Below are positions 7,226-50,666 of a stretch of DNA of 64,000 nucleotides, in pieces. The stretch lies in the NCBI RefSeq assembly GCF_001888185.1, contig NZ_CP016364.1, positions 2,046,001-2,110,000 of the forward strand, given 5' to 3'. How positions within the stretch are numbered: the stretch's first letter is position 1; every line of letters starts with the position of its first letter. The notes beneath the pieces are model-generated. The model saw only the letters and a program-made list of their open reading frames with translations, was not told the DNA's origin and did not search any database. Both the position numbers and the translations under genes were made by a program. The DNA comes from Phaeobacter porticola (lineage in GTDB: Bacteria > Pseudomonadota > Alphaproteobacteria > Rhodobacterales > Rhodobacteraceae).

Positions 7226-7767
7226 AGTGAGACACTGCGGCCAGACGCCGCCGCCGTCAATCGGTGATCCGCCAGAACTACCTTGCGCCCCTTTGGGGCG
7301 ACGAGAGAATCTGAGGGTAAGTTGCCAACCGCGCCCTACAAGTTTACGCAAGGTAAGGAATACCCTAATAGTCGTATTGCGCACAAATCGTTAACGCTGG
7401 TACTGCGGCTGCGCTTACGATCCGGGGGCAAGTCAGACAACGAGTTGTTACGAGTATAACCAGTGACAGGCCGGTGCCCGGCCCCGCCGATTATGGCAGG
7501 CCATCTGGGCTATACCCTGTCACTGTGTGCGATATCATATCGTCTGACTGCATGGCGCAGCCGCAAACTACTTCTCCTGCTTTCAACGAAGCTGTCACGC
7601 CATTCAGGTGGCGCGGTTCGCGTGAGGGACGCCCTGTGCAAGACCGACGCATCAACCGCAAAACCGATGCGCTGTTCTGCTGTTGGCACGCCATTTCCGC
7701 CGTTATCCCCGTGACACCCCCATCGGAGAGCGCTAGCGTCGCCGCACCAGCACAATCGGAGGTCACC
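7226..7767. other. Intergenic region between divergent glnE and MFS gene
   Basis: About 540 bases separate the chosen starts of glnE (minus) and the MFS transporter (plus). Open frames extend into it from both sides but carry no recognisable protein. It must contain both promoters. I found no convincing operator, RNA structure or small gene. Confidence 0.5.
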
Positions 7768-8985
7768 GTGGCATCACCCCTTTTGATCAGAAACCGAAAC
7801 TACCGGCTGTTGTTCACCGCCGGGGCGCTCACCAATCTGGGCGACGGGTTTATCCTATTGGCACTGCCATGGCTGGCCACGCTGATGACACGTGATCCGG
7901 TCGCGATTGCCGCCGTCGCTGCGGCTGGACGCCTGCCATGGTTGTTCTTTGCCCTGCCTGCAGGGGTGATTGCGGATATGACGGATCGGCGCAAGTTGAT
8001 TGCGCGCGCCGATCTTTTGCGGGCCATGATCGTGATGGCCATCCTGATGCTTGCGGTCAGCGCGCCGACTCCTGGTGCCATCTGGGCCTTGGCTGGACTC
8101 GCCTTTATCCTGGGGTCGGCTGAGGTGATCCGCGACAATGCGGCCCAGACCATCCTGCCCGATATTGTCGCCGGATCTGATCTGGAGACCGCCAATGGCC
8201 AGCTGTGGACGGCCGAGCAACTGACGGGTCAGTTCATTGGTCCGCCGCTGGCTGGTTTGCTAATCGCAGCCGGTATTGCTGTTCCCTTTGGACTGGATGT
8301 GGTGGCGCTGGTGTTGGCGGCGGGGTTTGTTTGGCTGATCAAGCTGTCACCGCGCGCGCCGCTGCGGCAGAGCTTTGGCAAAGCGCTACTTGAAGGCATC
8401 GCATTCATGCGCAGTGACCGTCTGCTGTTGCGGCTGGCCATTGTGCTGGGCATCGCCAATTTTCTCGCCACTGCAACGATTACTGTGCAGATCCTGTTTG
8501 CTCAGGACGTTCTAGCGCTATCGGCTACGGAATACGGGCTGGTGCTGTCCATTGCCGCACTTGGTGCTGTGACCGGTAGTCTGATTGCGCCACGCCTCAC
8601 CCGCCTAATCGGTGTACAGCCCTGCCTGTATCTGTCGATTGCGGGATGGGCTGCTGGCTACGCCGTTATCGGCCTTAGTAACAGTGGTATCGTCATGGCC
8701 TCGGCCCTGTTTGTGGTGATGACGGCGGCAATGGTCTGGAACGTAATCACTGTATCCTGGCGCCAGCGCCGCATCCCGTCCGACCTGCTGGGACGGGTCA
8801 ACAGCATCTATCGTTGCTTTGGCTGGGGGTCGATGCCACTGGGCGCGCTCACTGGTGGCGTTCTTGTTGCGCTGCTGGAGGGCGATCTGGGGCGCGATCT
8901 TGCCCTGCGTGCGCCCTTCCTGATGTCGGCGATCTGTTGCATTATTCTGCTGATCTACGCGGCGTTTTGGCTCAGGCTTGATTGA
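7768..8985 (+). CDS. MFS transporter
   Basis: A 405-aa membrane protein of the major facilitator superfamily with about 12 hydrophobic segments. The DMTDRRKL loop after TM2 corresponds to the family's conserved loop 2-3 motif, and NLGDGFILLALPWL lies in TM1. The open frame reaches back to 7474, but the GTG at 7768 has GGAGGT five bases upstream and gives the usual MFS length. The EamA/DHA-like style with RDNAAQTILPDIV resembles the branch of multidrug or macrolide exporters; the substrate is unknown. Probably inner membrane. Confidence 0.87.
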   Translation: MASPLLIRNRNYRLLFTAGALTNLGDGFILLALPWLATLMTRDPVAIAAVAAAGRLPWLFFALPAGVIADMTDRRKLIARADLLRAMIVMAILMLAVSAPTPGAIWALAGLAFILGSAEVIRDNAAQTILPDIVAGSDLETANGQLWTAEQLTGQFIGPPLAGLLIAAGIAVPFGLDVVALVLAAGFVWLIKLSPRAPLRQSFGKALLEGIAFMRSDRLLLRLAIVLGIANFLATATITVQILFAQDVLALSATEYGLVLSIAALGAVTGSLIAPRLTRLIGVQPCLYLSIAGWAAGYAVIGLSNSGIVMASALFVVMTAAMVWNVITVSWRQRRIPSDLLGRVNSIYRCFGWGSMPLGALTGGVLVALLEGDLGRDLALRAPFLMSAICCIILLIYAAFWLRLD

Positions 8986-9024
8986 CGTCGCAGGCGGAAC
9001 AGGCCGGGGGGACCCGGATACGTC

Positions 9025-10005
9025 ATGAAAGTCGCTTACCAGACCATCGCTGATGGTGAGGACGTCACCGGCAATTTTGCCGACCGGCTGATTGGCCTGA
9101 CCGTCATTGATGAGGCAGGCAGCAAATCAGACCGGGCCGAGATTACAGTCGACGACCGCGACGATGCCATCGCCCTGCCCGAGGATGGGGTTGCGTTGCA
9201 AATCTCGCTTGGCTTCACCAGCGATCTGGTGGAAATCGGGCGCTTTGTGGTGGATGAGCTGAGCGGCAGCATTGCGCCGGATATCATGACCATTGGTGCC
9301 AAGGCCGCAGATATGCTGAGCGGTATCCGGGCGCGCAAATCCCGGTCCTGGCGCAACGTCTCCCTTGCCGACATCATCACCAAGATTGCGGGCGAACACG
9401 GGCTGAAACCGGTGATCAGCGACAGCCTGAAAGCCCACCGCTATGCCTATCTGGCGCAGACCACCGAAAGCGACCTCAACTTCCTGACCCGCCTGGCCAA
9501 GGATCTGGACGCCGTCGCCAAACCGGCGGGCGGTGCTCTGGTTGTGGCCAAGCGCGGAGAAAACAAGGCCGCTGATGGCTCTGCCCTGCCGGTGTTTGAG
9601 GTGAACCGCGCGCAGATGGCGTCTTGCGATTGGCAACTGAAAGGGCGCGGCAAATACGGTTGCGTCATCGTGGAATGGACCGACCTTGGCAGCGCTGAAA
9701 TCCGCACCTGCAAGGCCGGAGACAAGGACCCCAAGCTGAAGCTGCGCCACCGCTACCCGAACAAGGCAGAGGCACAGCGCGCCGCCGACGCCGCCCTGTC
9801 CCGCGCCGCCCGCGCCAGCGGATCTGTCAGTGTTCAGCTCGGCGGCTTCTGGGGTGATCTGATGGCCGAGGCCAAGGTCAACCTGACCGGCATCAAGCCC
9901 GAACTGGAAGGCGAATGGTTGATCACCAGCGTCACCCACCGCCTCGGCGCGGCATTGACGACAAGTTTCAAAGCAGAACGCGACAACGAGAAGACGAAGA
10001 CATGA
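9025..10005 (+). CDS. Phage late control gene D-like tail hub protein
   Basis: A 326-aa protein matching the P2 gpD family: an N-terminal beta domain (LIGLTVIDEAGSKSDRAEI, VDDRDDAIALPEDG), a central VSLADIITKIAGEHGLKP segment, the characteristic AQTTESDLNFLTRLAKDLD motif and a C-terminal GEWLITSVTHRL. gpD forms the hub/spike base of contractile tails. Upstream is the MFS gene, not gpU/gpX tail genes, so this is a remnant. It overlaps the next gene by ATGA. Whether it is still expressed is unknown. Confidence 0.85.
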   Translation: MKVAYQTIADGEDVTGNFADRLIGLTVIDEAGSKSDRAEITVDDRDDAIALPEDGVALQISLGFTSDLVEIGRFVVDELSGSIAPDIMTIGAKAADMLSGIRARKSRSWRNVSLADIITKIAGEHGLKPVISDSLKAHRYAYLAQTTESDLNFLTRLAKDLDAVAKPAGGALVVAKRGENKAADGSALPVFEVNRAQMASCDWQLKGRGKYGCVIVEWTDLGSAEIRTCKAGDKDPKLKLRHRYPNKAEAQRAADAALSRAARASGSVSVQLGGFWGDLMAEAKVNLTGIKPELEGEWLITSVTHRLGAALTTSFKAERDNEKTKT

Positions 10006-10373
10006 ACGTAAATCTGGACACCGAATGGTATCGCCGGGGCGACACGCGCAGCTATGTCACCACGCGCGATCTGACCTGGAGCATTGGCAAGAAAGACAGC
10101 GGCTGGCTCCTGACCATCCCGGCAGGCCGCGCGTTTGAAAGCTCGGTTCCCGCCTGGCTGCACTGGCTGTTCTCGCCGGACGATCCCTATTTCCTGAAAT
10201 CCGCCGTCATCCACGACACGCTGCTGGAAGAAGGCTATCGCGTGGCCTTTGCCGACAGCCAGTGGTTTGAGGCCGCGCTAAGCGAACACGCCCCCGCCCT
10301 CCGCACCTGGGCCGCCTACGGCGCCATGCGCGCCCGCCGGTTCTGGAAATGGTTTTTTCGGCAGGAACGGTGA
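10002..10373 (+). CDS. DUF1353 phage-associated protein
   Basis: A 123-aa protein starting at the ATG that overlaps the gpD stop (ATGA), so the two are translationally coupled. The central WLLTIPAGRAFESSVPAWL and KSAVIHDTLLEEGY segments match DUF1353, a small family often found next to tail or lysis genes of Rhodobacterales prophages. The HD pair in the VIHDTLLE motif is the most conserved feature. The molecular function is not established. The C-terminus is basic and aromatic (RRFWKWFFRQER). Confidence 0.75.
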   Translation: MNVNLDTEWYRRGDTRSYVTTRDLTWSIGKKDSGWLLTIPAGRAFESSVPAWLHWLFSPDDPYFLKSAVIHDTLLEEGYRVAFADSQWFEAALSEHAPALRTWAAYGAMRARRFWKWFFRQER

Positions 10374-10541
10374 TTGCTTTAGAAAAAAGCACTGAAGCCT
10401 GCGTTTTCGTTCACAACAGCAGAGCAGCTCCCCCGAAACCAACCACACTGAAATCGCCCACCTCAACCTATAGGAGAAGTTTTACCTAGCGAATCGACCG
10501 TCTTCACCTAATAAGTGTTTTCAAAATTAGGGGAAGATTTT

Positions 10542-11486
10542 ATGACGAGAGTTTATCGGTTTTTGGAGTACCGCAAAGCACTATGGTTCACTGAATCAAC
10601 CGATCTTGAAACCCTGCTTCGTGCATCCCATCGCGAATTACCGACTTCTCGCCAGCGGGTGGTTGAACGCTCAGATGGATCTTCCGATATGGGAGCACGG
10701 ATAACACCCTACCCAGACGAAGGGGTCGCACTGCATTGCACTAGGTATGTTGATCGTCAACCAGCGGGAGTTGTACCCATGATCGACCAACAAACTACCC
10801 GCCTGTCAGAAAGAGCACCAGGGAACCAAGAAAACTATCTATATAGAGATTTTCTGGGCTTCGTTCGCGGGAACCACGTTATTTCATTCAATGCAGCATC
10901 AAATGCCGCGTCTCTACGTGGCTACCTCCAGGGATTGTTTCGCTTAGCCGGACTGCATGAAAATGCAGGGAAATTTGACCTTGTAAGACGTGCATCCGCA
11001 AATCAAATTGCCAGGATCTCCGCAGGTGGTGGCGTCGAAAGCGTCCAACTGGACCTCTCAATCGAAGATGCCACCCGGCAAGTGATTGAAGAAAACCTGA
11101 GAGCACAACAGCCTTGGACTGCGAAACGTCTACTGGACCCAATTGCTGGCATGGTTCAGGACCTGCTCGTAGCTGACCAGAAAGCGTCAGACTTAGGTCG
11201 GAGCCGTAAAGGCAATCTGCGCCTGTCAATCAATGTTCCCAAAGGGGACTTGCATCCGGCAAAGGAGGGCTTGGATGGGGTGGCTGAGATACTCGTTGAG
11301 GATGAGGATGCTGATGACTATGTCATCCGTCTTCGCAATGGTGACAGCATCAACCCAAGCGAGATGGCCATAAAGAAGAGGATACGGATAGACCGATATG
11401 CTAATACAGTGGATACGGACAGCGTCGTAATGGAGATGCGCCAGTACATGGTTGAGTTATTTCAGTCAGGGCAGTTGGAGGCTTAG
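10542..11486 (+). CDS. RexA-like soluble protein of a candidate phage-exclusion pair
   Basis: A 314-aa soluble protein with no signal peptide or membrane segment. The ATG at 10542 follows AGGGGAAG by five bases and is preferred over the GTG at 10515. I do not recognise a named domain directly. The segment at about 102-135 (DFLGFVRGNHVISF then SLRGYLQGLF) lines up in style with the conserved FLFVEGDTIGF and DLTDFL stretch of lambda RexA, and the next gene encodes a RexB-sized four-helix membrane protein. Gene order, sizes and prophage context fit RexAB; sequence similarity is weak and judged by eye. Base composition is lower in GC than the flanking core genes. Confidence 0.5.
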   Translation: MTRVYRFLEYRKALWFTESTDLETLLRASHRELPTSRQRVVERSDGSSDMGARITPYPDEGVALHCTRYVDRQPAGVVPMIDQQTTRLSERAPGNQENYLYRDFLGFVRGNHVISFNAASNAASLRGYLQGLFRLAGLHENAGKFDLVRRASANQIARISAGGGVESVQLDLSIEDATRQVIEENLRAQQPWTAKRLLDPIAGMVQDLLVADQKASDLGRSRKGNLRLSINVPKGDLHPAKEGLDGVAEILVEDEDADDYVIRLRNGDSINPSEMAIKKRIRIDRYANTVDTDSVVMEMRQYMVELFQSGQLEA

Positions 11487-11492
11487 GTTAGA

Positions 11493-12002
11493 TTGGGACT
11501 TGGAGCGGGCAAAATTGCTTGGGCAAGGATCATCAGCCTTGTTGGACTGCTAGTGCTATCCATAGTCTCTGGCTATTTCCTGCAACCGCTCGTTTCTGGG
11601 AATAAAGACGCCATCAATACTATTGTTACGATCTTTTCCATACTTGCAGGTTTTTTAATTGCTGTAATCACCTTCATTGGTGACCCGGGTTTACGCGGCT
11701 GGAAAGAACTACAGTTGGACAAACGTTCAGCCCAAGCCAAGCTAAGCCGCCACAGAATGCTATTTCATTTATATTTGCTAACGTTAGCTCTCGCTCTGGC
11801 AATGTTTCTTGTGCCGGAGACATACATCACAACTCAGCTCTGGCTCGAGCGCTTTTTCGTTGGATCCGCCACATTCGTGTTTCTTGCCTCATTCTCCTTG
11901 CCTAGATCTCTCTCCGCCTTGCAGATGGAGCGCTATGAAACGGCACTCGCAGAACAACTTCCTGATTTTCTGAAGGAGCAAGGCACAACTGGCGAAAAGT
12001 GA
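11493..12002 (+). CDS. Four-helix membrane protein, RexB-like
   Basis: A 169-aa protein starting at TTG six bases after the preceding stop; GGAGG lies about 11 bases upstream. Four membrane segments are visible at about 13-31, 41-63, 89-107 and 117-136, with a charged cytosolic loop (LQLDKRSAQAKLSRHR) between the second and third and a soluble C-terminal tail. TM2 reads IFSILAGFLIAVITFIG, comparable in shape to the AGTMIAILIAALTFLIG helix of lambda RexB, an ion-channel-like effector of abortive infection. The pair is probably one operon. No named family is claimed; the RexB analogy is inference. Confidence 0.55.
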   Translation: MGLGAGKIAWARIISLVGLLVLSIVSGYFLQPLVSGNKDAINTIVTIFSILAGFLIAVITFIGDPGLRGWKELQLDKRSAQAKLSRHRMLFHLYLLTLALALAMFLVPETYITTQLWLERFFVGSATFVFLASFSLPRSLSALQMERYETALAEQLPDFLKEQGTTGEK

Positions 12003-13153
12003 TCGTTGCACTCATTTTTGAGAACTGTCACAGGGTGCCTAGCAGTGCGCAGTTGCCTAGTTGCCAGGCAGCGCATGTATTGCGGCCACTTATGAAGTCT
12101 ATGCCTGCAACAAGCGTATAAAGACCGTTGCCGCCAGCTGGTATAATACGGGTAGCGACCTCTGCCTTGCAGTTTCACAAATTGAGCTGTCCGAAGCTGT
12201 CCCGCTAATCCGGCGAGGCAGCACACCGCCCCGGCAGGCGGCAGGCCCCCGAAATACTATGAAATGGGCAGAAGTTGCGCTAAGAAGTGGCCGGATCTGA
12301 AAAAACGTTTGCTGCAACTTGAAGTGTCCGAGTTTGCAAACGGAAGTGTCCCGCTACACCCGCTACACCCGCTGTTAGGAGACACTTTATATTGCAGTAA
12401 CCGGAAGAAGCCGGGAGAAGCCGGACAAACCCGGATGAGCCATAAAAATTGGGTTTTCAAGCAGGCTTCAAGGACACGGCCCAAAATGGCGCTTGTCTTG
12501 CACAACTCGAAAATGGGGAGAATATTGTGCCGGTGACGAAAACTGAGACAGTTCAAGTTTCAAATTATCCGGGGCTGCCCGCCTCGGTCCCGCCCAAGTC
12601 CGCGCTGCCTTACACGACTGCGCCCGCCTGCCCTGCTGGCCATTATCATAAGGCTGAGAGGGCACAGCCTCCCAGCCAAAGCGGCGCCACCACAGCAGCG
12701 CCGCAAGAACCCAATAAGCGCACTTATGTTAAGTTCCTAACCGCCATGTGGCCCACCGAACTTGGAATTAGCGCGCTATCGGAAGGGTCAGTTCCGAGAA
12801 TGAGATTAGTGACATAAAATCAAACAGATAACCGAACACGACTATCTTATCCACCGCCCTTAACTTGGAACAGATTTTGACAGACTTGCGCACTTCGCCG
12901 AAGTTCTTCGTAAGCGCAGTTTTGTAGCCCCCAACGTCAGTGCTGCGCAGTTAGCGACCTTTGCAAAGTCGTGGAATCTGCCAGCCGGACGGCGGTCCCA
13001 TGCTGCACGAGCAACGGATGGAGCAGACCTTCGCCGCAAGTGCAGCCACCAACCATCATCGAACGGACGGGATGCGGACAAAGCGAACTTTGGTTGCCGC
13101 ACCACGAACGACCGCTGTACCAGCATTGATCAACTCGCCGACTGATAGACAAG
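12003..13153. other. Gene-poor accessory stretch with repeats
   Basis: About 1.15 kb without a convincing gene. Short open frames here lack ribosome binding sites and family patterns. The stretch contains one copy of a 65-bp direct repeat (12309-12373), and fragments rich in TTTGCAAA and GCGCACTTCGCC-like words that look like decayed or dispersed intergenic sequence. Confidence 0.55.
12309..12373. repeat. 65-bp direct repeat, copy 1
   Basis: Identical over 65 bases to 19329-19393, 7020 bases downstream and in the same orientation. It contains two units of TGCAAnnnGAAGTGTCC at 12313-12329 and 12335-12351 (22-base period), then a CCGCTACAC tandem run. An open reading frame across it exists only because the same sequence lacks stops in that frame. 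Confidence 0.9.
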
Positions 13154-13801
13154 TTACTTTTTCGTCCTCATCCGAAGGGCATACCAACCAGCCCATAGGA
13201 TCAGATAGATAAACAAAGCAGCATAGATTGCAGGCTGTGGGTTGCTGGTCGAACTGATAGAGCCCGCGTAGGCTGCGATTAGAACGTAAGGTACCGTCCC
13301 AACTACAAAGAACAAACCATACTGCGAGATTCGCAAACGCGTTGCACCTGCCATACAAGCGGTGAGTTCAGGAACGATGGGAGCAGCTCGTGACAACATA
13401 ATCATCGCGGGGCCATTCTTGTGAAAGGTTTCGACTAGATCAAGTCGGTCGCCTTCGTTCTTGATCAAGACCGAGATGAGCTTTTCACCCCAAACTCGGC
13501 TAATCGCATATCCAGAAAAAGCAGCGGCTGTCATGCCAGCAAATGCGGTTGCTGCGCCCAGTGGGAAGCCGAGAAAGAACCCTGCAAGCAGGGTGATCGT
13601 AAGCGTGGGTACCGCGACAAACAAATCAAGAAAGAGCAGCAGGACAACTGTGCCAACGACCCACACCGGAGCGACATTTTGCGCCAGCACCAGCCAGTAC
13701 CGGATGTTTTCAACCGTGAGCAATCCGAAGGCTCTGCCAAGAATGAACGTTGTTGCGAAGAGTGCTCCGACGATCAACATCACTTTGAGAAGATGTTTCA
13801 T
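13154..13801 (-). CDS. VTT/TVP38-family membrane protein
   Basis: A 215-aa integral membrane protein with about five to six hydrophobic segments. The pattern VPTLTITLLAGFFLGFPLGAA followed by a basic/acidic loop and SRAAPIVPELTACMAGAT is the VTT (DedA-like, TVP38/TMEM64) domain. Such proteins are linked to lipid scrambling or transport across the inner membrane. The gene starts 4 bases after the SDR stop, so the two form an operon. In this accessory setting a role in membrane stress is possible but not shown. Confidence 0.82.
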   Translation of the reverse strand: MKHLLKVMLIVGALFATTFILGRAFGLLTVENIRYWLVLAQNVAPVWVVGTVVLLLFLDLFVAVPTLTITLLAGFFLGFPLGAATAFAGMTAAAFSGYAISRVWGEKLISVLIKNEGDRLDLVETFHKNGPAMIMLSRAAPIVPELTACMAGATRLRISQYGLFFVVGTVPYVLIAAYAGSISSTSNPQPAIYAALFIYLILWAGWYALRMRTKK

Positions 13802-13805
13802 GCGC

Positions 13806-14537
13806 CTATGCCGACTTCATGATTTTTGTGGCCAAACTAGGAGCGAGTCGTTGAATGATGCGCAAAGCTTTGACTTTGCCCACATTGATATCGAGAGTTG
13901 AGCTAGCCATCCCTTGGATGATTTCAGTGGCGACCTTGTCTACCGGCAATTTTGCAGCACCTCTGCCTTGGGTCATGGCCGTGTCCACCAAGGGCAGGAA
14001 CACTTGCTTGACGTCAATATTAGTGTCGGCCAGTTGATGACGTAGCGACTGCGAGAAAATATTTAGCGCGCCCTTCGTTGCACAATAGATGGCCGAGCTC
14101 GTCTTGGGCACCAAGCCAAGCCCAGAGTTGATGTTCACGATCATGGAACGATTTGCCTGCAGTAGGCTGGGCATTAGCAAGTAAATCAACGCACAGATGG
14201 ACGTGAAGTTGATGTCGATCTCGCGTTGGATCGTCTCATAGCGAAAATCGTTGTCCAGAAATCTTGGTGTGTATTGCACCGCTGCGTTGTTGATGAGGAT
14301 ATCAACGGGACGCTCTGATTTCACCAAACCATCAGCCGCCCGCTCAACAGATTTGGCATCCGCAAAGTCTGCTTCATATACTGCCAATTGTGGAAAAGTC
14401 TTCCTTAGCCGCGCAAGGCCATCAGATGGCCTCGCGATGACTGAAACATCGTTCCTTTCCTGAAGCTTTTGTAGCAACCCGAGACCTATGCCAGATGCGC
14501 CACCGGTGATTACGATGTGTTTGCCCGAGATGTTCAT
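13806..14537 (-). CDS. Short-chain dehydrogenase/reductase
   Basis: A 243-aa SDR starting at the ATG at 14537 (MNISGKHIVIT), which has AGGAGA upstream; an in-frame extension to 14582 is not needed. The cofactor motif TGGASGIGLG sits at residues 11-20, NNAA (LINNAAVQY) in the middle, and the catalytic YCATK tetrad Tyr/Lys after SSAI. The style is that of DltE-type SDRs with NAD(P). The substrate is unknown. It is the first gene of a two-gene operon with the VTT protein and is divergent from a Crp-like regulator. Confidence 0.87.
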   Translation of the reverse strand: MNISGKHIVITGGASGIGLGLLQKLQERNDVSVIARPSDGLARLRKTFPQLAVYEADFADAKSVERAADGLVKSERPVDILINNAAVQYTPRFLDNDFRYETIQREIDINFTSICALIYLLMPSLLQANRSMIVNINSGLGLVPKTSSAIYCATKGALNIFSQSLRHQLADTNIDVKQVFLPLVDTAMTQGRGAAKLPVDKVATEIIQGMASSTLDINVGKVKALRIIQRLAPSLATKIMKSA

Positions 14538-14627
14538 GCCATTCTCCTGAAGTGACTGGTTTGCCCTTGCTTCGTCGTGCACACTAGGCGCACGCGCCGC
14601 CCAAGGAATTATCCCAGGTTAATTGTC

Positions 14628-15164
14628 ATGAATCTGACTGAGTTTGTTGAAGAGCATGGATCGCCGCTTACCAAAGAGGCGGAAGGTTACATTTTTAGAA
14701 TGGGGGATCGGGACAGGTCTCTTTACATTGTACAAAGCGGATTGCTGAAGGCCTACTACCTGTCAGCTGATGGCAAAGAAAACATCAAGTCCTTCCTTGT
14801 GCCCGGTGACAGCATCGGCAGCATTACGTCCGCTTATGCCGACAAAGGCTGCACGTTCAGTTTGATGTGCTTACAGGATTGTAAGCTGATCTGCGTAGAA
14901 TTCGACGCTGTGCTCAATGAGAGCAAGAACGATTCCGAGCTTTCAACAGAAATCATCAAATTTCTATTGGGTTTCGCAATGAAGAAAGAGGCACGCGAAT
15001 ACGAACTTCTGTGTCTCTCCGCGGAAGATCGATATCGCCGCCTTGTTGATACTAGACCCGAGATTTTCGATCTCGTCACTCAAATCGATATTGCGCGTTA
15101 TCTGGGCGTCACTCCGGTCGGCCTAAGTCGGATCAAAAAGCGCGTTTCGGCGACACCGGCGTGA
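14628..15164 (+). CDS. Crp/Fnr-family transcriptional regulator
   Basis: A 178-aa protein: an N-terminal cyclic-nucleotide-binding-like beta barrel (FRMGDRDRSLYIVQSGLLKAYY, then KSFLVPGDSIGSI) and a C-terminal helix-turn-helix ending TQIDIARYLGVTPVGLSRIKK. No N-terminal cysteines for an iron-sulfur cluster are present, so it is not an Fnr oxygen sensor. It is divergent from the SDR-VTT operon, with about 90 bases between start codons, and probably controls it. The ligand is unknown. Confidence 0.85.
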   Translation: MNLTEFVEEHGSPLTKEAEGYIFRMGDRDRSLYIVQSGLLKAYYLSADGKENIKSFLVPGDSIGSITSAYADKGCTFSLMCLQDCKLICVEFDAVLNESKNDSELSTEIIKFLLGFAMKKEAREYELLCLSAEDRYRRLVDTRPEIFDLVTQIDIARYLGVTPVGLSRIKKRVSATPA

Positions 15165-15355
15165 CACGGCCAATCTCGGCAAAGCGGACATACAATTGCT
15201 TTGCAGCATCCTGAACATTGGGCTCACTGCCGCCGTTGGCCGCGCCAGCGTACCAAACCGGGGCTGAAACCAGAGGCCAAGGTCGGCAGAGCGGGACAAA
15301 GCGCCCTTTCGCTGCACTTGCGCCAATGTCTGTTTTGAGCGACTAGTGACAGACA

Positions 15356-15523
15356 ATGACTTTTAGAAAATTCGGTAATCTCACTGGCACTGTCGGTATG
15401 CTCGTAGCACTGTCTGCGTGTTCTTCAGAGTACATGTCTGTCGCCAACCTTCATGGAAGCGCGACCGTCAGCATGTCTGTGACGCCAATGTTCGGTATAC
15501 ACAGCGACTGGAACTGTCAATGA
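15356..15523 (+). CDS. Small lipoprotein-like reading frame cut by IS21
   Basis: A 55-codon frame beginning MTFRKFGNLT with a hydrophobic stretch ending in a lipobox-like LSAC at residues 19-22. The last codons and stop (NCQ, TGA) are supplied by the left end of the IS element. If one GAAC duplication and the element are removed, the frame continues without a stop into the HEPN gene at 18043. It could therefore be a truncated lipoprotein, the former N-terminal part of a longer reading frame, or a chance frame. Moderate to low confidence. Confidence 0.4.
   Translation: MTFRKFGNLTGTVGMLVALSACSSEYMSVANLHGSATVSMSVTPMFGIHSDWNCQ
15511..15514. repeat. Target site duplication GAAC, left
   Basis: GAAC immediately outside the left terminal repeat of the IS21-family element; the same four bases occur immediately outside the right end at 17985-17988. 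Four-base duplications are within the IS21 range. Confidence 0.75.
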
Positions 15524-15641
15524 GCGTTCAAAGTTGACCCGGTTTCAGCATTTAAAATTGACCCACCCCATGTGGCGCAAAGCCCCCAGGCGGGCCGCCC
15601 TCATATAGCGAGTCCGTCTGGGGGCTTTGCTTTCGGGACGG

Positions 15642-16373
15642 TTACTTTTCTCTGCGGCTTTTGCTCTGAGCAAAGCGATAGGACGTGTTGCCGGTTTCGA
15701 TGATTGCGCAATGGTGGGTGACGCGATCCAGCAGCGCGGTGGTCATCTTGGCATCGCCAAAGACCGAGACCCACTCTCCGAACTCCAGGTTGGTGGTGAT
15801 GATGACGCTGGTTTTCTCGTAGAGCTTGCTGATCAGATGGAACAGCAATGCTCCGCCAGACTTGGGGAACGGGATGTAGCCCAGCTCGTCGATGATGACG
15901 CAATCCAGAGCCGAGAGTTGCCGGATGATCTTCCCGGCATTGCCCTCGGCCTGTTCCTTGATCAGGGCGTTGATCAGATCGACGGCGTTGAAGAAGCGTG
16001 CCTTCTTGCCGTTGGTGATCAGGGTGGTGCCCAAAGCGATGGCGATATGGGTTTTGCCGGTGCCGGTTCCGCCCACCAGGATGAGGTTGTGCGCCTCTTG
16101 GGTGAACTGCCCTGTGCAGAACGGTTCGATCTGGGTCTGGGTGATGGCGGCAGCACCATAATCGAAGGTGGCGAAGTCCTTATGATGGGGGAACTTCGCG
16201 ATCCTCATTTGATACTGGATAGAGCGCGCCCGCCGCTCTACAGTCTCCGCGTCGATCAGTTGCTTTATCGCTGTGGTCAGACTTGGTGGCTTGCGCGCGG
16301 ACAGCAAATCATGTGCGCAAGCTGCCATTCCGTGCAACCTCAGGGCGGTCAGTTGGTCGATCAGGGCGTTCAT
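15642..16373 (-). CDS. istB: IS21 helper ATPase IstB
   Basis: A 243-aa AAA+ ATPase. Walker A is GGTGTGKTH and Walker [11 protein letters not shown], followed by [15 protein letters not shown] and a TTNLEFGEW sensor region, all standard for IstB. It assists the transposase by remodelling target DNA. Its ATG overlaps the istA stop (ATGA), as in the family. The length is normal and no lesion is visible. Confidence 0.93.
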
Positions 16374-17869
16374 GCGGCAACCTCCTCAGTCGAGCACAGG
16401 ATCTCATAGCGCTTGCAGTCGGCCTCGGGTCGCAGGGTCAGTTGCGGATAGGCATAGGCTTCGCTGAGCGGCGTGATGACCGGCTCCACCAACTGGTTAA
16501 TCAGGTTGATGATGGCGGGCAGGCGGAGGGTGTTTTGTGCCACGGCCAGTTCACAAGCCATCTCGACAACCTCGATCCCGTGATCCTGGACGAGCAGAAG
16601 CAGATCAACGAACTCCCGATCCCCGCCCTTGTCTGCCATGTAATGTTCCCTGATCTGGTGCATGGCCTCAGGCAGTTGCCAGTCCACGAAGGGTGCGCCA
16701 TTGCGTAGGGCGCCGGGCTTGCGATCCAGCAGAGGAACATAGTGCCAGGGTTCAAAGTAGCTGACGTTGCGGGTGAAGCGGCGCTTATGCTCGGCGATGA
16801 TATCCTGGCCCGACACCAGCATAATCCGGCCCGCATAAGCGCGCAGCGACACATGTTGACCGGCAAAGTGGGACGGGACGCTGTAGCGGTTGCTGGCATA
16901 TTGAACCAGGCAAGTGGATCGGACACGAACCGTCTTCTCAACATAGCCGTCAAAAGGCCGACCCAAGGGGCGCAGCTCGGCGCGTTCGTCTTCGAACACC
17001 TCGGCAATCGTGCGATCCTGCTGTTCGGGATGGGGACGATTGGCCAGTTCTTCACAGCGCAGGCGCAACCAGTTGTTCAGCGCATCAAGATCTTCAAAGG
17101 CAGGCTTGGGCACAAACAACCGGCCGCGCAAAAACTGGACCTGGTTCTCGACCTGCCCCTTCTCCCAACCCGCTGCGGGCGTGCAGGCAACAGGTTCCAT
17201 CACATAGTGGTTCATCAGAGCCAGGAACCGGGGATGGAATATCCGGTCCTTCGAGCGGGACACATAGGTCACCATGGTCTTGGGGTTATCAATGATCACC
17301 CGTCGTGGAACCCCGCCATAGAAAGACAGTGCCTGCACAAAAGCATCCAGAACCATCTCCTGGGCTTCGCCGGGATAGGCGATCACCAAAGGCTTGCGGC
17401 TGTGGCACAGGCGGAAATGGGCAACCTAGATCTTTTGTTCAACGCCGCCCAGGACAACCCGTTCTTCGCTCCAGTCAAACTGAAGGGCGTCACCAGCAGC
17501 AAAATGCAGGGGGATAAAAGCATCGCCAGAACCGGCGCCAGCCCGCTTCAGATCGCGGACAAATCGCTGAACTGGAGAATAGGACCCGGTGTAGCCTTCC
17601 ACCACGAGCTGCTCATAAAGCTTCTGGGCCGTTCGCCGCTCCCGACGTGGTCGCTTCTGGTCCTGATCGAACAGTTCCTGAAGCCGGAGATCAAACCCGT
17701 TGCACAGTTTGTGCCGAACCGGTGGAGCCTGGCGCTGGTAGCTCGGCGGGCTCTCATCCTTCAAATACTTCTTGATCGTGTTGCGCGATAATCCCGTCGC
17801 CCGCGCAACAGACCGGATACTGCGCCCTTCAACCAGCACCCACAGACGGATCTTCGATACACTTTCCAT
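16370..17869 (-). pseudogene. istA: IS21 transposase IstA with in-frame amber codon
   Basis: About 500 codons from the ATG at 17869 (MESVSKIRL), the normal IstA size, but codon 148 (17426-17428) is TAG. Both halves are in the same frame, and the flanking residues (EQKI then VAHFRLCHSR) suggest that an AAG lysine became TAG by one substitution. The N-terminal part has the helix-turn-helix (VARATGLSRNTIKKYL) and the first catalytic Asp (LQFDWSEE); the second Asp (IIDNPKT) and the Glu (KGQVENQVQF) lie after the stop. Without suppression the transposase is inactive. An internal ATG at 17389 could restart translation but lacks the DNA-binding part. Confidence 0.9.
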
Positions 17870-17984
17870 CAATAACACCTGCTCTTTCCTCCGCACTTGA
17901 AGCGCGGATGTTAACGAAACAGGTGGGTCAATTTTACTCGCTCATAACCCACCTAAGTGGGTCAATTTCGCATGCCGATTCACA

Positions 17985-17988
17985 GAAC
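17985..17988. repeat. Target site duplication GAAC, right
   Basis: GAAC directly after the right end of the IS21-family element, matching the four bases before the left end at 15511-15514. Confidence 0.75.
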
Positions 17989-18042
17989 GAAGAAACCGCA
18001 CCCCCCGCGCATGTGAACAAACCGAGACAAGAGGTCACAGAA

Positions 18043-18981
18043 ATGGTCTTAAGCGCATTCTTGATTTCAGATGCTGATGTTTTCACCGGCCCGGAATGGG
18101 AAACTGGGTTCGGTGAAAGACCTTGGTCAAAGTTGTCGGTAAGAGCCGCCGAGGGGATGAGGGGCGTGATTAGCGCTGCCACTATTCCATTTCAGCTTGA
18201 GCATGACTCCGTAACTCAGAGACATTTTAACAGGTTTCTCATGGCGGAACGCATCAGAAGGCTAAAAGACGTTGAGCCCGGTGCGGGGCTAAAGCCGGAG
18301 GATGAAGCCCTTGCATCGGAGATTGCTCAACAGTGTATGGACGATTTTCAGTCGTCAGAGGTCGGCAGAAACACCATAAGGAACGATATCGTCAACGGCC
18401 TCCACCGGCATATGCAATCTAAGAATATCTCCTTTGCGACGCGAGAGTTATTGTACCAAGCTCAAGTGTCTTCATGGTCAATCTTCGAAAATTTCTGTAA
18501 GTCTTTCATCGTGACTTGGCTCAACGAGCACCCTTACGTATCGAAAGATGTGTTAAGTATTAAACGCTTCCAAAAGATGATTGGCGGTCAGAGCCTTAAT
18601 ATTGATAATATTTCTGGGTTTGGTTTTGATCTAACAAAATCTATGGGAGATGTGATCTTTTCTGGGGTAAAATTGGACGGATTCGAGGTGCTAAAAGATC
18701 TATGCAAGGTTCTGTTGAGTGATGATCGGGTACAGCGAGCTTTTGGAAATGACTTATACTTCCTGAACAAGTCTCGTCATCTAATCGTGCATCGTCGCGC
18801 AGAGGTCGATTTGGAGTTTCTTAACTCGACTGGCAAGAGTTACCAGATTGGCGATTTGATGCATATAGATAGCCAGGATATCGAGCGCTCCTTTGAGGCG
18901 GTTCGAGAGGCAATACTAGCTATTATGTTTGCTGCGGAGGTCAGGGTAGGGTCGGCTTCAACGGGCCCTTCTGCAGTTTAA
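18043..18981 (+). CDS. HEPN-motif protein of unknown function
   Basis: A 312-aa soluble protein, starting at the ATG preceded by GAGGTC. The C-terminal half carries an R-x4-H motif (RHLIVH, residues 245-250) in the setting FLNKSRHLIVHRRAEVD followed by a FLNSTGKSYQIGD segment. This is the signature of HEPN domains, many of which are metal-independent RNases in toxin-antitoxin and phage-defence systems. The N-terminal 130 residues are not recognised. Codon use is poorer in GC than core genes. It lies directly after the IS21 element, which may have displaced its promoter. No antitoxin-like neighbour was seen. Confidence 0.6.
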   Translation: MVLSAFLISDADVFTGPEWETGFGERPWSKLSVRAAEGMRGVISAATIPFQLEHDSVTQRHFNRFLMAERIRRLKDVEPGAGLKPEDEALASEIAQQCMDDFQSSEVGRNTIRNDIVNGLHRHMQSKNISFATRELLYQAQVSSWSIFENFCKSFIVTWLNEHPYVSKDVLSIKRFQKMIGGQSLNIDNISGFGFDLTKSMGDVIFSGVKLDGFEVLKDLCKVLLSDDRVQRAFGNDLYFLNKSRHLIVHRRAEVDLEFLNSTGKSYQIGDLMHIDSQDIERSFEAVREAILAIMFAAEVRVGSASTGPSAV

Positions 18982-19195
18982 CACCGGCAATGATCCAAAA
19001 TTCTATGACTTTGCAAAGGGCGCTTTCTGCAGCACATCGGACGCACTGGGTCGCCCAGGCTGCGTCCGCAGCGAGCGGCTGCTTGTCCCCCCTCTCCCCC
19101 TTACACCCCTCCTTTAAACGCCCCTTTAAACCCCCTTTTAAAACTCTCTGCCGCTCCGCCGTTTTTTAACGGTTTGGGCGGCGAACGTTCAAGTT

Positions 19196-19234
19196 TGCAA
19201 TGGGAAGTGTCCCGTACTGCAACGGGAAGTGTCC
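19196..19234. repeat. Pair of 22-bp-spaced TGCAAnnnGAAGTGTCC units
   Basis: Units at 19196-19212 and 19218-19234. The same spacing (22 bases start to start) is seen in the pairs inside both 65-bp repeats. Each unit here contains the near-palindrome GGGAAGTGTCCC. Iteron-like appearance; function unknown. Confidence 0.75.
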
Positions 19235-19328
19235 CAAAACCGCAGCGCCGGATCGGGGAAGCCGAAGCTCTCGGAGCTGGCTGGGCACCGGGTTTTGGCC
19301 TAAAAAGCAGGGAAATCATGAAAATGAG

Positions 19329-19393
19329 TTGCTGCAACTTGAAGTGTCCGAGTTTGCAAACGGAAGTGTCCCGCTACACCCGCTACACCCGCT
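19329..19393. repeat. 65-bp direct repeat, copy 2
   Basis: Identical to 12309-12373. It contains TGCAAnnnGAAGTGTCC units at 19333-19349 and 19355-19371 and continues into a longer CCGCTACA tandem run than copy 1. The two copies bracket the VTT/SDR/Crp genes, the IS21 element and the HEPN gene. Confidence 0.9.
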
Positions 19394-19551
19394 ACAGTCC
19401 CGCTACAGCTACACTTAAAGCTAAACAAACCGCTTTATGTGAAAAAGATTTACATCGAGCCTTGAAACCACGCCGGAGGACTCCGATATTCCATAATGTG
19501 AAGCGCATTTACATAGACGCCGCACCTTGCAACGTTAACCTGGAGACCCCG

Positions 19552-49274: not shown

Positions 49275-50666
49275 ATGTCACTGAACGACGTCCTGGACCG
49301 GATCGATACCGATCTTGATGCCGCCACCCAACGGTTGATGGACTTGCTGCGCATCCAGTCAATTTCGACCGATCCGGCCTATAAGGAAGATTGCGACAAG
49401 GCCGCCGATTGGCTGGTAACCGACCTGCGCTCTATCGGGATTGACGCGGAAAAACGCGTCACGCCCGGCCATCCGATGGTGGTGGGCCACGTCGGCCCGC
49501 AGGACGCGGGCCTGCCGCATGTGCTGTTCTATGGTCATTACGACGTGCAGCCGGTGGATCCGCTGGACCTGTGGAAAACCCCGCCGTTTGAGCCGCAGCT
49601 GGAAGAGACCGCGCGCGGCACCGTCATCCGCGGTCGTGGGGCGTCTGATGACAAGGGTCAGCTGATGACCTTTGTCGAGGCCTGCCGTGCCTGGCAGGCG
49701 GTGAACGGCTCCCTGCCTTGCCGCATCACTTTCTTCTTTGAAGGCGAAGAAGAGAGCGGCTCGCCCTCGCTGGTGCCCTTCATGGAACAGCACGCCGCTG
49801 AGCTGAAGGCGGATCTGGCGCTGATCTGCGACACCTCCATGGTCTCGCGTGGCGTGCCCTCGATCTCCTCGCAGCTGCGCGGCATGCTGAAGGACGAATT
49901 CACCCTAATCGGCCCCCGGATTGATCTGCACTCTGGCCATTACGGTGGCCCCGGCCTCAACCCCCTGCGCGAACTCAGCCGCATCATTGCGTCGTTCTAC
50001 GATGAAGACACCGGCAAAGTCGCCGTCGATGGCTTCTATGACGGTGTGCATGAGGTGCCAGAGGACCAGCTGCGCCAGTGGGAGGGCTGCGGTTTTGAAG
50101 AGCAGGACTATCTCTCGAACGCAGGCTACACGCAGGCCCACGGAGAGAAGGACCGCTCTGTGCTGGAACAGCAATGGGCGCGTCCAACGCTGGAGGTGAA
50201 CGGCCTCTGGGGTGGCTATAATGGTGCCGGCTCAAAAACCGTGATCCCGTCTGAGGCCCATTGCAAGATCACCTGCCGTCTGGTCGGCGACATGGATCCG
50301 GACGCCCTGCGCCTGAAAATCCGCAAACATGTCGAGGACCGGCTGAAGCCCGACACCCAGGTAAAATGGGACAATGATCTGGAAGGTTCGCGCGCCTCGG
50401 TGATGAACATCTCCCGCCCCGAGTTCGAGGCCGCCCGGGGGGCGCTGTCGGATGAATGGAACCGCGAAGCGGTGTTCTGCGGCATGGGCGGGTCCATCCC
50501 GATTGCCGGTTTCTTCAAATCGATTCTGGGCATGGATGCGATGTTGATCGGCTTTGCCAATGAGGATGACGCGATCCACTCCCCCAATGAGAAATACGAT
50601 CTGGAAAGTTTCCACAAAGGCATCCGCTCCTGGGCCCGCGTGCTGGATGCGCTGACCAAGACATAA
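49275..50666 (+). CDS. M20-family dipeptidase
   Basis: A 463-aa zinc peptidase. Metal ligands and catalytic residues are in FYGHYDVQPVDP (His, Asp), RGRGASDDKGQLM (bridging Asp), FFFEGEEESGSPSL (Glu-Glu) and the C-terminal HSPNEKYDLESF (His). This is the CNDP/PepV-like dipeptidase branch, with a lid/dimerisation domain in the middle (about 190-340). Acts on dipeptides or N-acyl dipeptides in the cytoplasm. AGGAG precedes the ATG. Confidence 0.92.
   Translation: MSLNDVLDRIDTDLDAATQRLMDLLRIQSISTDPAYKEDCDKAADWLVTDLRSIGIDAEKRVTPGHPMVVGHVGPQDAGLPHVLFYGHYDVQPVDPLDLWKTPPFEPQLEETARGTVIRGRGASDDKGQLMTFVEACRAWQAVNGSLPCRITFFFEGEEESGSPSLVPFMEQHAAELKADLALICDTSMVSRGVPSISSQLRGMLKDEFTLIGPRIDLHSGHYGGPGLNPLRELSRIIASFYDEDTGKVAVDGFYDGVHEVPEDQLRQWEGCGFEEQDYLSNAGYTQAHGEKDRSVLEQQWARPTLEVNGLWGGYNGAGSKTVIPSEAHCKITCRLVGDMDPDALRLKIRKHVEDRLKPDTQVKWDNDLEGSRASVMNISRPEFEAARGALSDEWNREAVFCGMGGSIPIAGFFKSILGMDAMLIGFANEDDAIHSPNEKYDLESFHKGIRSWARVLDALTKT

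Follow-up and report, generated by a model that had tools for sequence, protein, structure and literature searches.

Two adjacent genes, denoted A and B below, in a 64,000-nucleotide stretch of the genome of Phaeobacter porticola (contig NZ_CP016364.1, positions 2,046,001 to 2,110,000; hereafter the window, with positions counted from its first letter) probably constitute a phage-exclusion (abortive infection) module of the RexAB type. This module belongs to a diverged branch that is mostly undescribed, appears to follow the same working plan as RexA and RexB of phage lambda, occurs also outside repressor loci and is not seen by the standard models that we ran. A RexAB-like module in a prophage remnant had been proposed in a first-pass annotation made from the letters of the window alone; the RexAB-like part of that proposal is upheld by a structure search that leads from protein A to RexA, by the adjacency of A and B nearly everywhere, and by homologs that lie at the rexAB position in lambdoid phages.

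Conservation of the gene pair

Genes A and B are encoded on the same strand, and 6 bases separate the stop codon of A (start ATG at 10542) from the TTG start of B (at 11493), with a GGAGG readable about 10 bases 5' of the latter. The protein sizes (314 and 169 amino acids, aa), the spacing and the neighboring gpD and DUF1353 genes are as first annotated, in agreement with the open reading frames (ORFs) and with Pfam and PHROG.

In loci identified with the window A protein or with A alignments alone, a B-family protein is encoded directly downstream of A in 9 of 12, one of the 9 being borderline (one locus per species: L001, L003, L004, L005, L006, L007, a Ketogulonicigenium plasmid with three records, L013, L014, L015, L016 and L088, some of which were re-read under other names, namely L013 as L017, L014 as L018, L015 as L019, L016 as L020 and L088 as L100). 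L003 is untestable for B since the contig ends, and in L015, where A is present only in part, and L016, a different membrane protein not recognized by the B profile is found behind A. The E-values of the initial profiles, A1 and A2, on their own members are circular, and the test was therefore repeated with profiles A10 (for A) and A11 (for B), which have only L001 and L026 as members among the 25 retested loci. With 8 of the 9 B-positive loci left out of its making, the A11 profile, searched among 2381 ORFs, detects the B proteins of L004, L005, L006, the plasmid, L013 and L014 at E = 4e-8 or better.

Of the 27 loci identified through B (L010, L011, 24 viral contigs and the coliphage PhiR11_1, one of 4 records opened), 26 carry A immediately upstream, and the other locus, L046, retains a remnant, so that A or its remnant is present in 27/27. 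In that viral contig (L046:1960-2704), B is open and A is reduced to 84 C-terminal residues. The A10 profile, built without them, recovers the A proteins of L010 (E = 2e-33), L011 (E = 6e-39) and PhiR11_1 (E = 3e-5). The viral contigs were found with the pattern [TD][IV]FSILAG, and the conservation of FSILAG among them is partly by construction; the motif is also present in L001, L004, L005, L009 and L018, all found via A. Some of these contigs are nearly identical (L033/L034, L041/L042 and L049/L054), which leaves fewer independent loci than counted. Outside the pair counts stand 9 phage records retrieved through the A protein of L020 and 4 contigs found with the PhiR11_1 B protein. A gene for a hydrophobic protein unseen by the B profile lies behind A in 3/3 of these phage records opened (cut short in SfIV), and A lies upstream of B in 4/4 of the contigs; in one of the latter, a relative of the PhiR11_1 pair (L082:2104-3483), A is split in two ORFs and B is open.

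In 28 pairs measured with chosen or record start codons, a set that does not include L018 and a few other pairs, the start of B falls between 17 bases ahead of the end of A and 70 bases beyond it; the genes overlap by 4 bases in 8/28 pairs and by 13 bases in 6/28, which suggests that A and B are translationally coupled. The two ORFs are conserved together across many loci and thus represent more than a chance arrangement. The first-pass annotation had named failure of the genes to co-occur in other genomes as an outcome that would speak against it; the counts above run the other way.

The family extends well beyond the close relatives of the window pair. On a scale of 1000 sequences, the A10 profile detects the A proteins of the coliphage Perceval, SfIV, an Acinetobacter phage and L020 at E = 2e-10 to 2e-17, and that of PhiR11_1 at E = 1e-5, and hhalign links family A to the group formed by the Perceval, SfIV, Acinetobacter, L020, PhiR11_1 and L083 proteins with a probability of 99.3 (E = 9e-21; reversed decoy 0.1). 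The B proteins of PhiR11_1 and the window share 37% identity over 87 residues (BLASTP, E = 3e-13 in a small database). In several A-family loci, the downstream membrane protein is unseen by the B profile (L019:2200-3079, L020:7786-9343, L060:4001-5508 and L062:4001-5551); these unrecognized partners may reflect either divergence or partner exchange. The distribution of gene A is sparse and patchy, in keeping with mobile defense genes: the single protein finds it in 6/295 genomes of the family, the own genome included, and the alignments find it in 2/385 genomes from the class, 4/398 from the phylum and 2/61 of the nearest relatives (2/7 in the genus).

Predicted fold of protein A

Protein A matches two PHROG families, phrog_26543 (E = 8e-15) and phrog_3482 (E = 2e-7), both of unknown function; the former is matched by 23/23 members of alignment A10. 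An indication of what A might be comes from its AlphaFold2 (AF2) model, built from 23 sequences (predicted local distance difference test, pLDDT, 72.9; predicted template modeling score, pTM, 0.69). When this model was compared with 350,542 PDB chains using Foldseek, the two chains of lambda RexA, 8twq_B and 8twq_A, ranked 1 and 2 (E = 1.9e-5 and 2.0e-5; probability 1.00) and were alone among 451 hits in reaching E <= 0.001. The two-domain RexA/RdgC fold is thus recovered for A by Foldseek on a predicted model, at a low overall TM-score. Ranks 3, 5 and 9 are chain N of human CCAN (inner-kinetochore) complexes and rank 14 is a CENP-N entry, with E-values spanning 0.004 (rank 3) to 0.13; chain N of these complexes we take to be CENP-N, the counterpart of the CHL4 subunit. 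In the Foldseek viral library, 5 uncharacterized phage proteins are matched at E <= 0.001, the best one from Siphoviridae sp. ctylc9; a 'recombination-associated protein' (rank 12) and RdgC (rank 14) are not significant (E about 0.2). The RexA fold is described as common to RdgC and the IML3/CHL4 kinetochore proteins (PMC11077077). The division of A into domains (Table 1) follows the order of strands and helices in the model as compared with the description of RexA in PMC11077077, not a residue-level structural alignment.

The membrane protein B

The AF2 model of B is an all-helical bundle (pLDDT 74.3, pTM 0.60) with long helices at residues 6-34, 38-63, 77-106 and 112-133 and a C-terminal helix. 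The four membrane helices of the first-pass annotation stand as a prediction from the model and the family, and not from the hydropathy of the window protein alone: a scan with a 19-residue window and a threshold of 1.6 detects 3 of the 4 in window B, and among 24 B-family rows gives 4 helices in 8 and 3 helices in 16. The most basic loop lies between helices two and three and, by the positive-inside rule, both this loop and the two ends are predicted to be cytoplasmic. The same topology is described for Sbash gp31, with a cytoplasmic central loop and ends, and substitutions in the central loop are reported to render gp31 inactive for defense (PMC6426596); RexB of the Pseudomonas putida system RexABpp is modeled with both termini at one end (PMC12894663).

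A relation of B to RexB is proposed solely by analogy of size, topology and position. In the viral library, the B model matches nothing at E <= 0.001; rank 2 is a 165-aa protein of Sbash, which is the length of gp31 (a comparison with the Sbash features up to base 50,000), at a non-significant E of 0.23, and ctylc9, the source of the best match for A, also contributes a 172-aa protein at rank 15, which is not significant either (E = 0.78). The structure searches that had been named in advance as the way to place both families hence lead from A to RexA and, for B, to no significant match either way.

Genomic settings of the homologs

The order of genes in lambda is cI, rexA, rexB (the record consulted labels all three rexb), and homologs of the window pair occupy the same slot behind cI in other phages. 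In the coliphage PhiR11_1, the order is cro / cI, A, B, N; in Perceval, cI, the A homolog, a gene for a transmembrane protein, kil and gam. In the Acinetobacter phage phi1_092021, a repressor gene and a small ORF are followed by A (annotated 'DefenseFinder protein') and a gene for a hydrophobic protein; in L037, a transposable phage with a transposase gene, a CI-like repressor and about 0.6 kb containing a 74-aa ORF precede A and B; and in the congener G1026 (L100), the order is S24 repressor, A, B. A position next to a repressor is found in L037, L059, L060, L062 and L100 and is not found for the window copy. Neighbors were scanned in selected loci, and these positions are given as instances rather than as a rate.

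Other copies are located elsewhere. The pair is found among head genes (L051 and L052) and downstream of replication genes (L035 and L039); it is close to an endolysin gene in L040 and to a tail gene in L047, and on the Ketogulonicigenium plasmid (L009) it lies beside type I restriction genes. In SfIV, A lies beside lysis genes, with a short membrane ORF that adjoins an IS1 gene. In L023 (193-8758), the pair (7250-8221 and 8228-8758) is downstream of ABC-3C genes (CTD10, DUF2326) and MmeI-type restriction genes, and this region is likely a defense island. In two Rhodobacteraceae loci (L021 and L022), the pair is directly behind a gene that by eye resembles thyX (an ORF of the opposite strand scanned there has no match), and in L036 an FRG-domain gene (250-1152) is located a little upstream of the pair. 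The proven systems of Sbash and Butters are likewise encoded apart from the repressor (PMC11077077).

Evidence against a RexAB affiliation

Several results weigh against this interpretation. Protein A has no Pfam match and matches neither PF15969 nor PHROG 12654, the RexA families; the Pfam RexA model recognizes 0/23 A members at E <= 1, and PADLOC assigns 0 families to both window proteins and recognizes 0/23 A members. In a Smith-Waterman comparison, the whole of A scores under the shuffle mean against RexA, with 962 of 1000 shuffles as high, and hhalign gives a probability of 0.3-1.6% (reversed decoys, 0.1-0.3%). The segment FLGFVRGNHVISF...SLRGYLQGL, in which the first-pass annotation saw a resemblance to RexA, fares no better, also scoring under the shuffle mean (828/1000 shuffles as high), and searches of PDB sequences with phmmer and hmmsearch yield no significant route to RexA or RexB. 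These sequence and profile tests of A against RexA are low in power because known actinophage Rex-like proteins fail them as well: hhalign of lambda RexA against the actinophage RexA-like group gives 1.2-5.7% only, and the accepted Rex-like proteins CarolAnn gp44, Butters gp30 and Toast gp42 likewise fail both PF15969 and phrog_12654.

The structural match has its own weaknesses. The A model is of moderate confidence, with 70 residues below pLDDT 50 (73-101 and most of 182-223), and its overall TM-score to RexA is 0.37-0.43 with a root mean square deviation of about 17.6; because of this low score, the match is one of local structure and order and not of domain arrangement. The crystal form of RexA is closed and an open, DNA-binding form is predicted (PMC11077077), and a domain rotation between closed and open forms could explain the low TM-score. 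For B, there is no Pfam PF15968 match and, among the profiles and in the viral structure library, no significant profile or structure match to RexB; the best profile signal is with the actinophage RexB-like group (11.5% vs 2.0% for the decoy), and in the Smith-Waterman comparison with RexB, 6 of 1000 shuffles score as high as B, whose best alignment pairs non-equivalent helices. The link to the B family obtained with the independent profile is weak in L100 (E = 7e-4) and above all in L007 (E = 0.07). Finally, there is no repressor gene among the window neighbors scanned or listed, and no sigma-70-like promoter was found for the window pair, so that its expression is unproven.

Comparison with known systems and alternative interpretations

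Lambda RexA/RexB (PF15969/PF15968; PDB 8TWQ) share with the window pair the gene order, the combination of a soluble and a membrane protein, similar sizes and the predicted fold of A. They differ in the lack of significant sequence similarity, in the window copy having no repressor seen alongside, in length (314 aa in window A vs 279 aa, and 169 aa in window B vs 144 aa) and in the FSILAGFL helix that B carries and RexB lacks. RdgC and IML3/CHL4 (CENP-N) differ in function (recombination and kinetochore, respectively) and, to our knowledge, have no membrane partner. The DNA-clamp fold that they represent is reported for RexA (PMC11077077) and weakly seen for A.

RexABpp (PP_5643/PP_5644 of Pseudomonas putida prophage P1) also consists of two genes, for a RexA-fold sensor and a four-helix membrane effector, in the same order and with the same topology, and is of prophage origin; unlike the window pair, it is located near a CI-like repressor, and, being compared by description, it could represent the same branch or another. 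It was identified by HHpred and structure, with BLAST yielding hypothetical proteins only; both genes are required for defense, and overexpressed RexA triggers RexB-dependent growth suppression (PMC12894663). According to the same paper, a two-hybrid assay did not show RexA-RexB binding. The actinobacteriophage pairs Sbash gp30/gp31, CarolAnn gp44/gp43, Toast gp42/gp41 and Butters gp30/gp31 are similar in layout and topology, and no profile comparison links them significantly with family A or B (Sbash being outside the alignments); DNA binding has been shown for Toast gp42 (PMC11077077). A gene of Mycobacterium phage Sejanus (L085) annotated 'RexA family abortive infection protein' is related to CarolAnn gp44. 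The count of described RexAB-like systems is five: lambda, Sbash, CarolAnn, Butters and RexABpp (PMC12894663). The rarity outside lambdoid phages that the first-pass annotation assumed thus does not hold, with mycobacteriophage, Gordonia phage and P. putida systems in print (PMC6426596, PMC6426606, PMC12894663); none of these, as far as seen, is alphaproteobacterial, and no RexAB of Alphaproteobacteria was found in the literature searched, most subscription papers being outside the search.

By analogy with lambda RexAB and RexABpp (PMC12894663), in which an infection-sensing A-type protein switches on a B-type protein, the module might work as follows. Protein A would adopt the RexA/RdgC fold, form a dimer that clamps double-stranded DNA and detect either the replication of the phage or DNA-protein intermediates. 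Protein B would be a four-helix protein of the inner membrane with a basic cytoplasmic loop; activated A would contact B, which would then open or damage the membrane. The resulting membrane impairment would stop growth before the infecting phage completes its cycle. The module would have arrived on mobile DNA and been retained in a chromosomal accessory block.

The main rival of this scheme reverses the roles, so that A would be the antiviral effector and B would hold it at the membrane until infection, as reported for Butters (PMC12894663). Butters gp30/gp31 share the gene order (403 and 187 aa), and the retention in L046 of B with a mere C-terminal remnant of A is what might be seen if B were harmless alone. 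This arrangement nevertheless seems improbable here, given that family A has no profile match to the Butters/Toast/CarolAnn group and that in RexABpp, Sbash and CarolAnn it is the B-type protein that acts as effector (PMC12894663). It appears quite unlikely that the main role of A is to regulate the choice between lysis and lysogeny, as a DNA clamp on the repressor switch, with phage exclusion as a by-product: the window copy, the plasmid copy and L023 keep A and B with no repressor among the neighbors seen, and in L051 and L052 the pair is among head genes. Very unlikely is a two-gene unit of another kind for defense or lysis, such as a Kiwa-like system or a holin and its partner, that would share the general architecture only; two-gene layouts with a membrane and a soluble protein are common and 4/24 B-family members show weak PHROG holin matches (best E = 5e-4), whereas RexA is the only solved structure matched at E <= 0.001, lysis genes are near some copies only, and PADLOC, whose library presumably includes Kiwa models, gives nothing for either window protein or the 23 A members, on which ground Kiwa (KwaA/KwaB) was rejected.

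If the RexAB-type interpretation is correct, this kind of exclusion is much wider than the five described systems (PMC12894663) and is not limited to repressor loci, and a branch of it is missed by the Pfam RexA model (0/23) and PADLOC-DB 2.0.0 (0/23). The branch is a source of numerous natural versions of the classic exclusion system of Benzer, lambdoid pairs at the rexAB position among them, that would be useful for studying the trigger of RexA and the signal from A to B. A broader conjecture, which we find somewhat harder to credit than to doubt, is that RexAB is one corner of a large superfamily, heterogeneous in sequence, that moves among Proteobacteria as a self-contained defense cassette and combines a RexA/RdgC-fold clamp with several unrelated-looking four-helix membrane proteins. 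Its settings would be the immunity regions of prophages, the head operons of phages, plasmids and islands rich in restriction genes. Because the B profile does not recognize the partners of the A-family members in L019, L020, Perceval and the Acinetobacter phage, sensors may have exchanged effectors during evolution instead of the two only diverging.

The window locus and its accessory block

Table 1. Features of the window discussed in the text (coordinates in the window; those of genes A and B include the stop codons).
Feature	Coordinates	Strand	Basis
Gene A (314 aa): soluble protein resembling RexA, proposed to sense infection and clamp DNA	10542..11486	+	ORF; AF2 model; Foldseek against PDB
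A residues 1-150, proposed part one of split globular domain	10542..10991	+	Strand/helix order of model against RexA description (PMC11077077)
A residues 153-270, proposed dimerization domain, low confidence at about 182-223	10998..11351	+	Model and PMC11077077
A residues 278-309, strand and long C-terminal helix, proposed part two of globular domain	11373..11468	+	Model
Gene B (169 aa): helical membrane protein resembling RexB, proposed effector at the membrane	11493..12002	+	ORF; AF2 model; homologs adjoin A
Basic loop in the center of B (residues 63-88; 7 K/R, 3 D/E), proposed to be cytoplasmic and to contact A	11679..11756	+	Analogy with the Sbash gp31 loop
gpD-like phage tail/baseplate hub gene, neighbor outside the module	9025..10005	+	Pfam, PHROG
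DUF1353/tail-assembly-chaperone-like gene, neighbor outside the module	10002..10373	+	Pfam, PHROG
Accessory block at the glnE site carrying the module	7474..19437	.	Comparison with congener G075

The module is accessory, since the block that carries it is missing in one congener, mostly different in another, and represented by none of its proteins in four congener stretches. In G075, the DNA matches the window as far as 7474 and, about 160 bases further on, matches it again from 19437, so that about 12 kb with the MFS, gpD, DUF1353, A, B, IS21 and other genes are missing at the glnE site. In G1027, an insert of about 11 kb precedes the same anchor and differs in content save for stretches matching window positions 12366-12573 and 12709-13079. 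This flank was compared in 4 of 6 congeners, the anchor lying past the 12.5-12.6 kb covered in the other two; glnE itself is present in 7/7 genomes of the genus, counting the one that holds the window. In the four congener stretches, tblastn (E <= 1e-5) detects 0 of 9 block proteins (MFS, gpD, DUF1353, A, B, VTT, SDR, Crp-like and a 357-aa ORF product). The G+C content of A (0.51) and B (0.48), compared with 0.62-0.63 for gpD, DUF1353 and glnE and 0.58 for the window, is consistent with acquired DNA; the VTT and SDR genes further downstream of B also show 0.51.

Of the two upstream neighbors, the gpD-type tail protein matches Pfam (E = 1.5e-17) and PHROG tail families (E = 9.5e-103), and the DUF1353 protein matches Pfam (E = 2.4e-6) and a PHROG tail assembly chaperone (E = 8e-16). 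These two tail genes are the only other phage genes recognized in the block among the window ORFs that were scanned, a part of the total, and the designation as a prophage remnant is fair in that sense only. The first-pass annotation had also leaned on this neighborhood; a role of gpD and DUF1353 as module components was rejected, neither being detected in the flanks of the other A/B loci compared (phmmer, E <= 1e-4; flanks from < 2 kb to about 12 kb).

Further downstream in the block is an IS21-type element (15642-17896), with an istB-like ORF that matches the Pfam model nearly end to end and, on the other side, two ORFs (17426-17896 and 16370-17389). It is followed by the 357-aa ORF (17908-18978), for which the DUF6953 match is below threshold.
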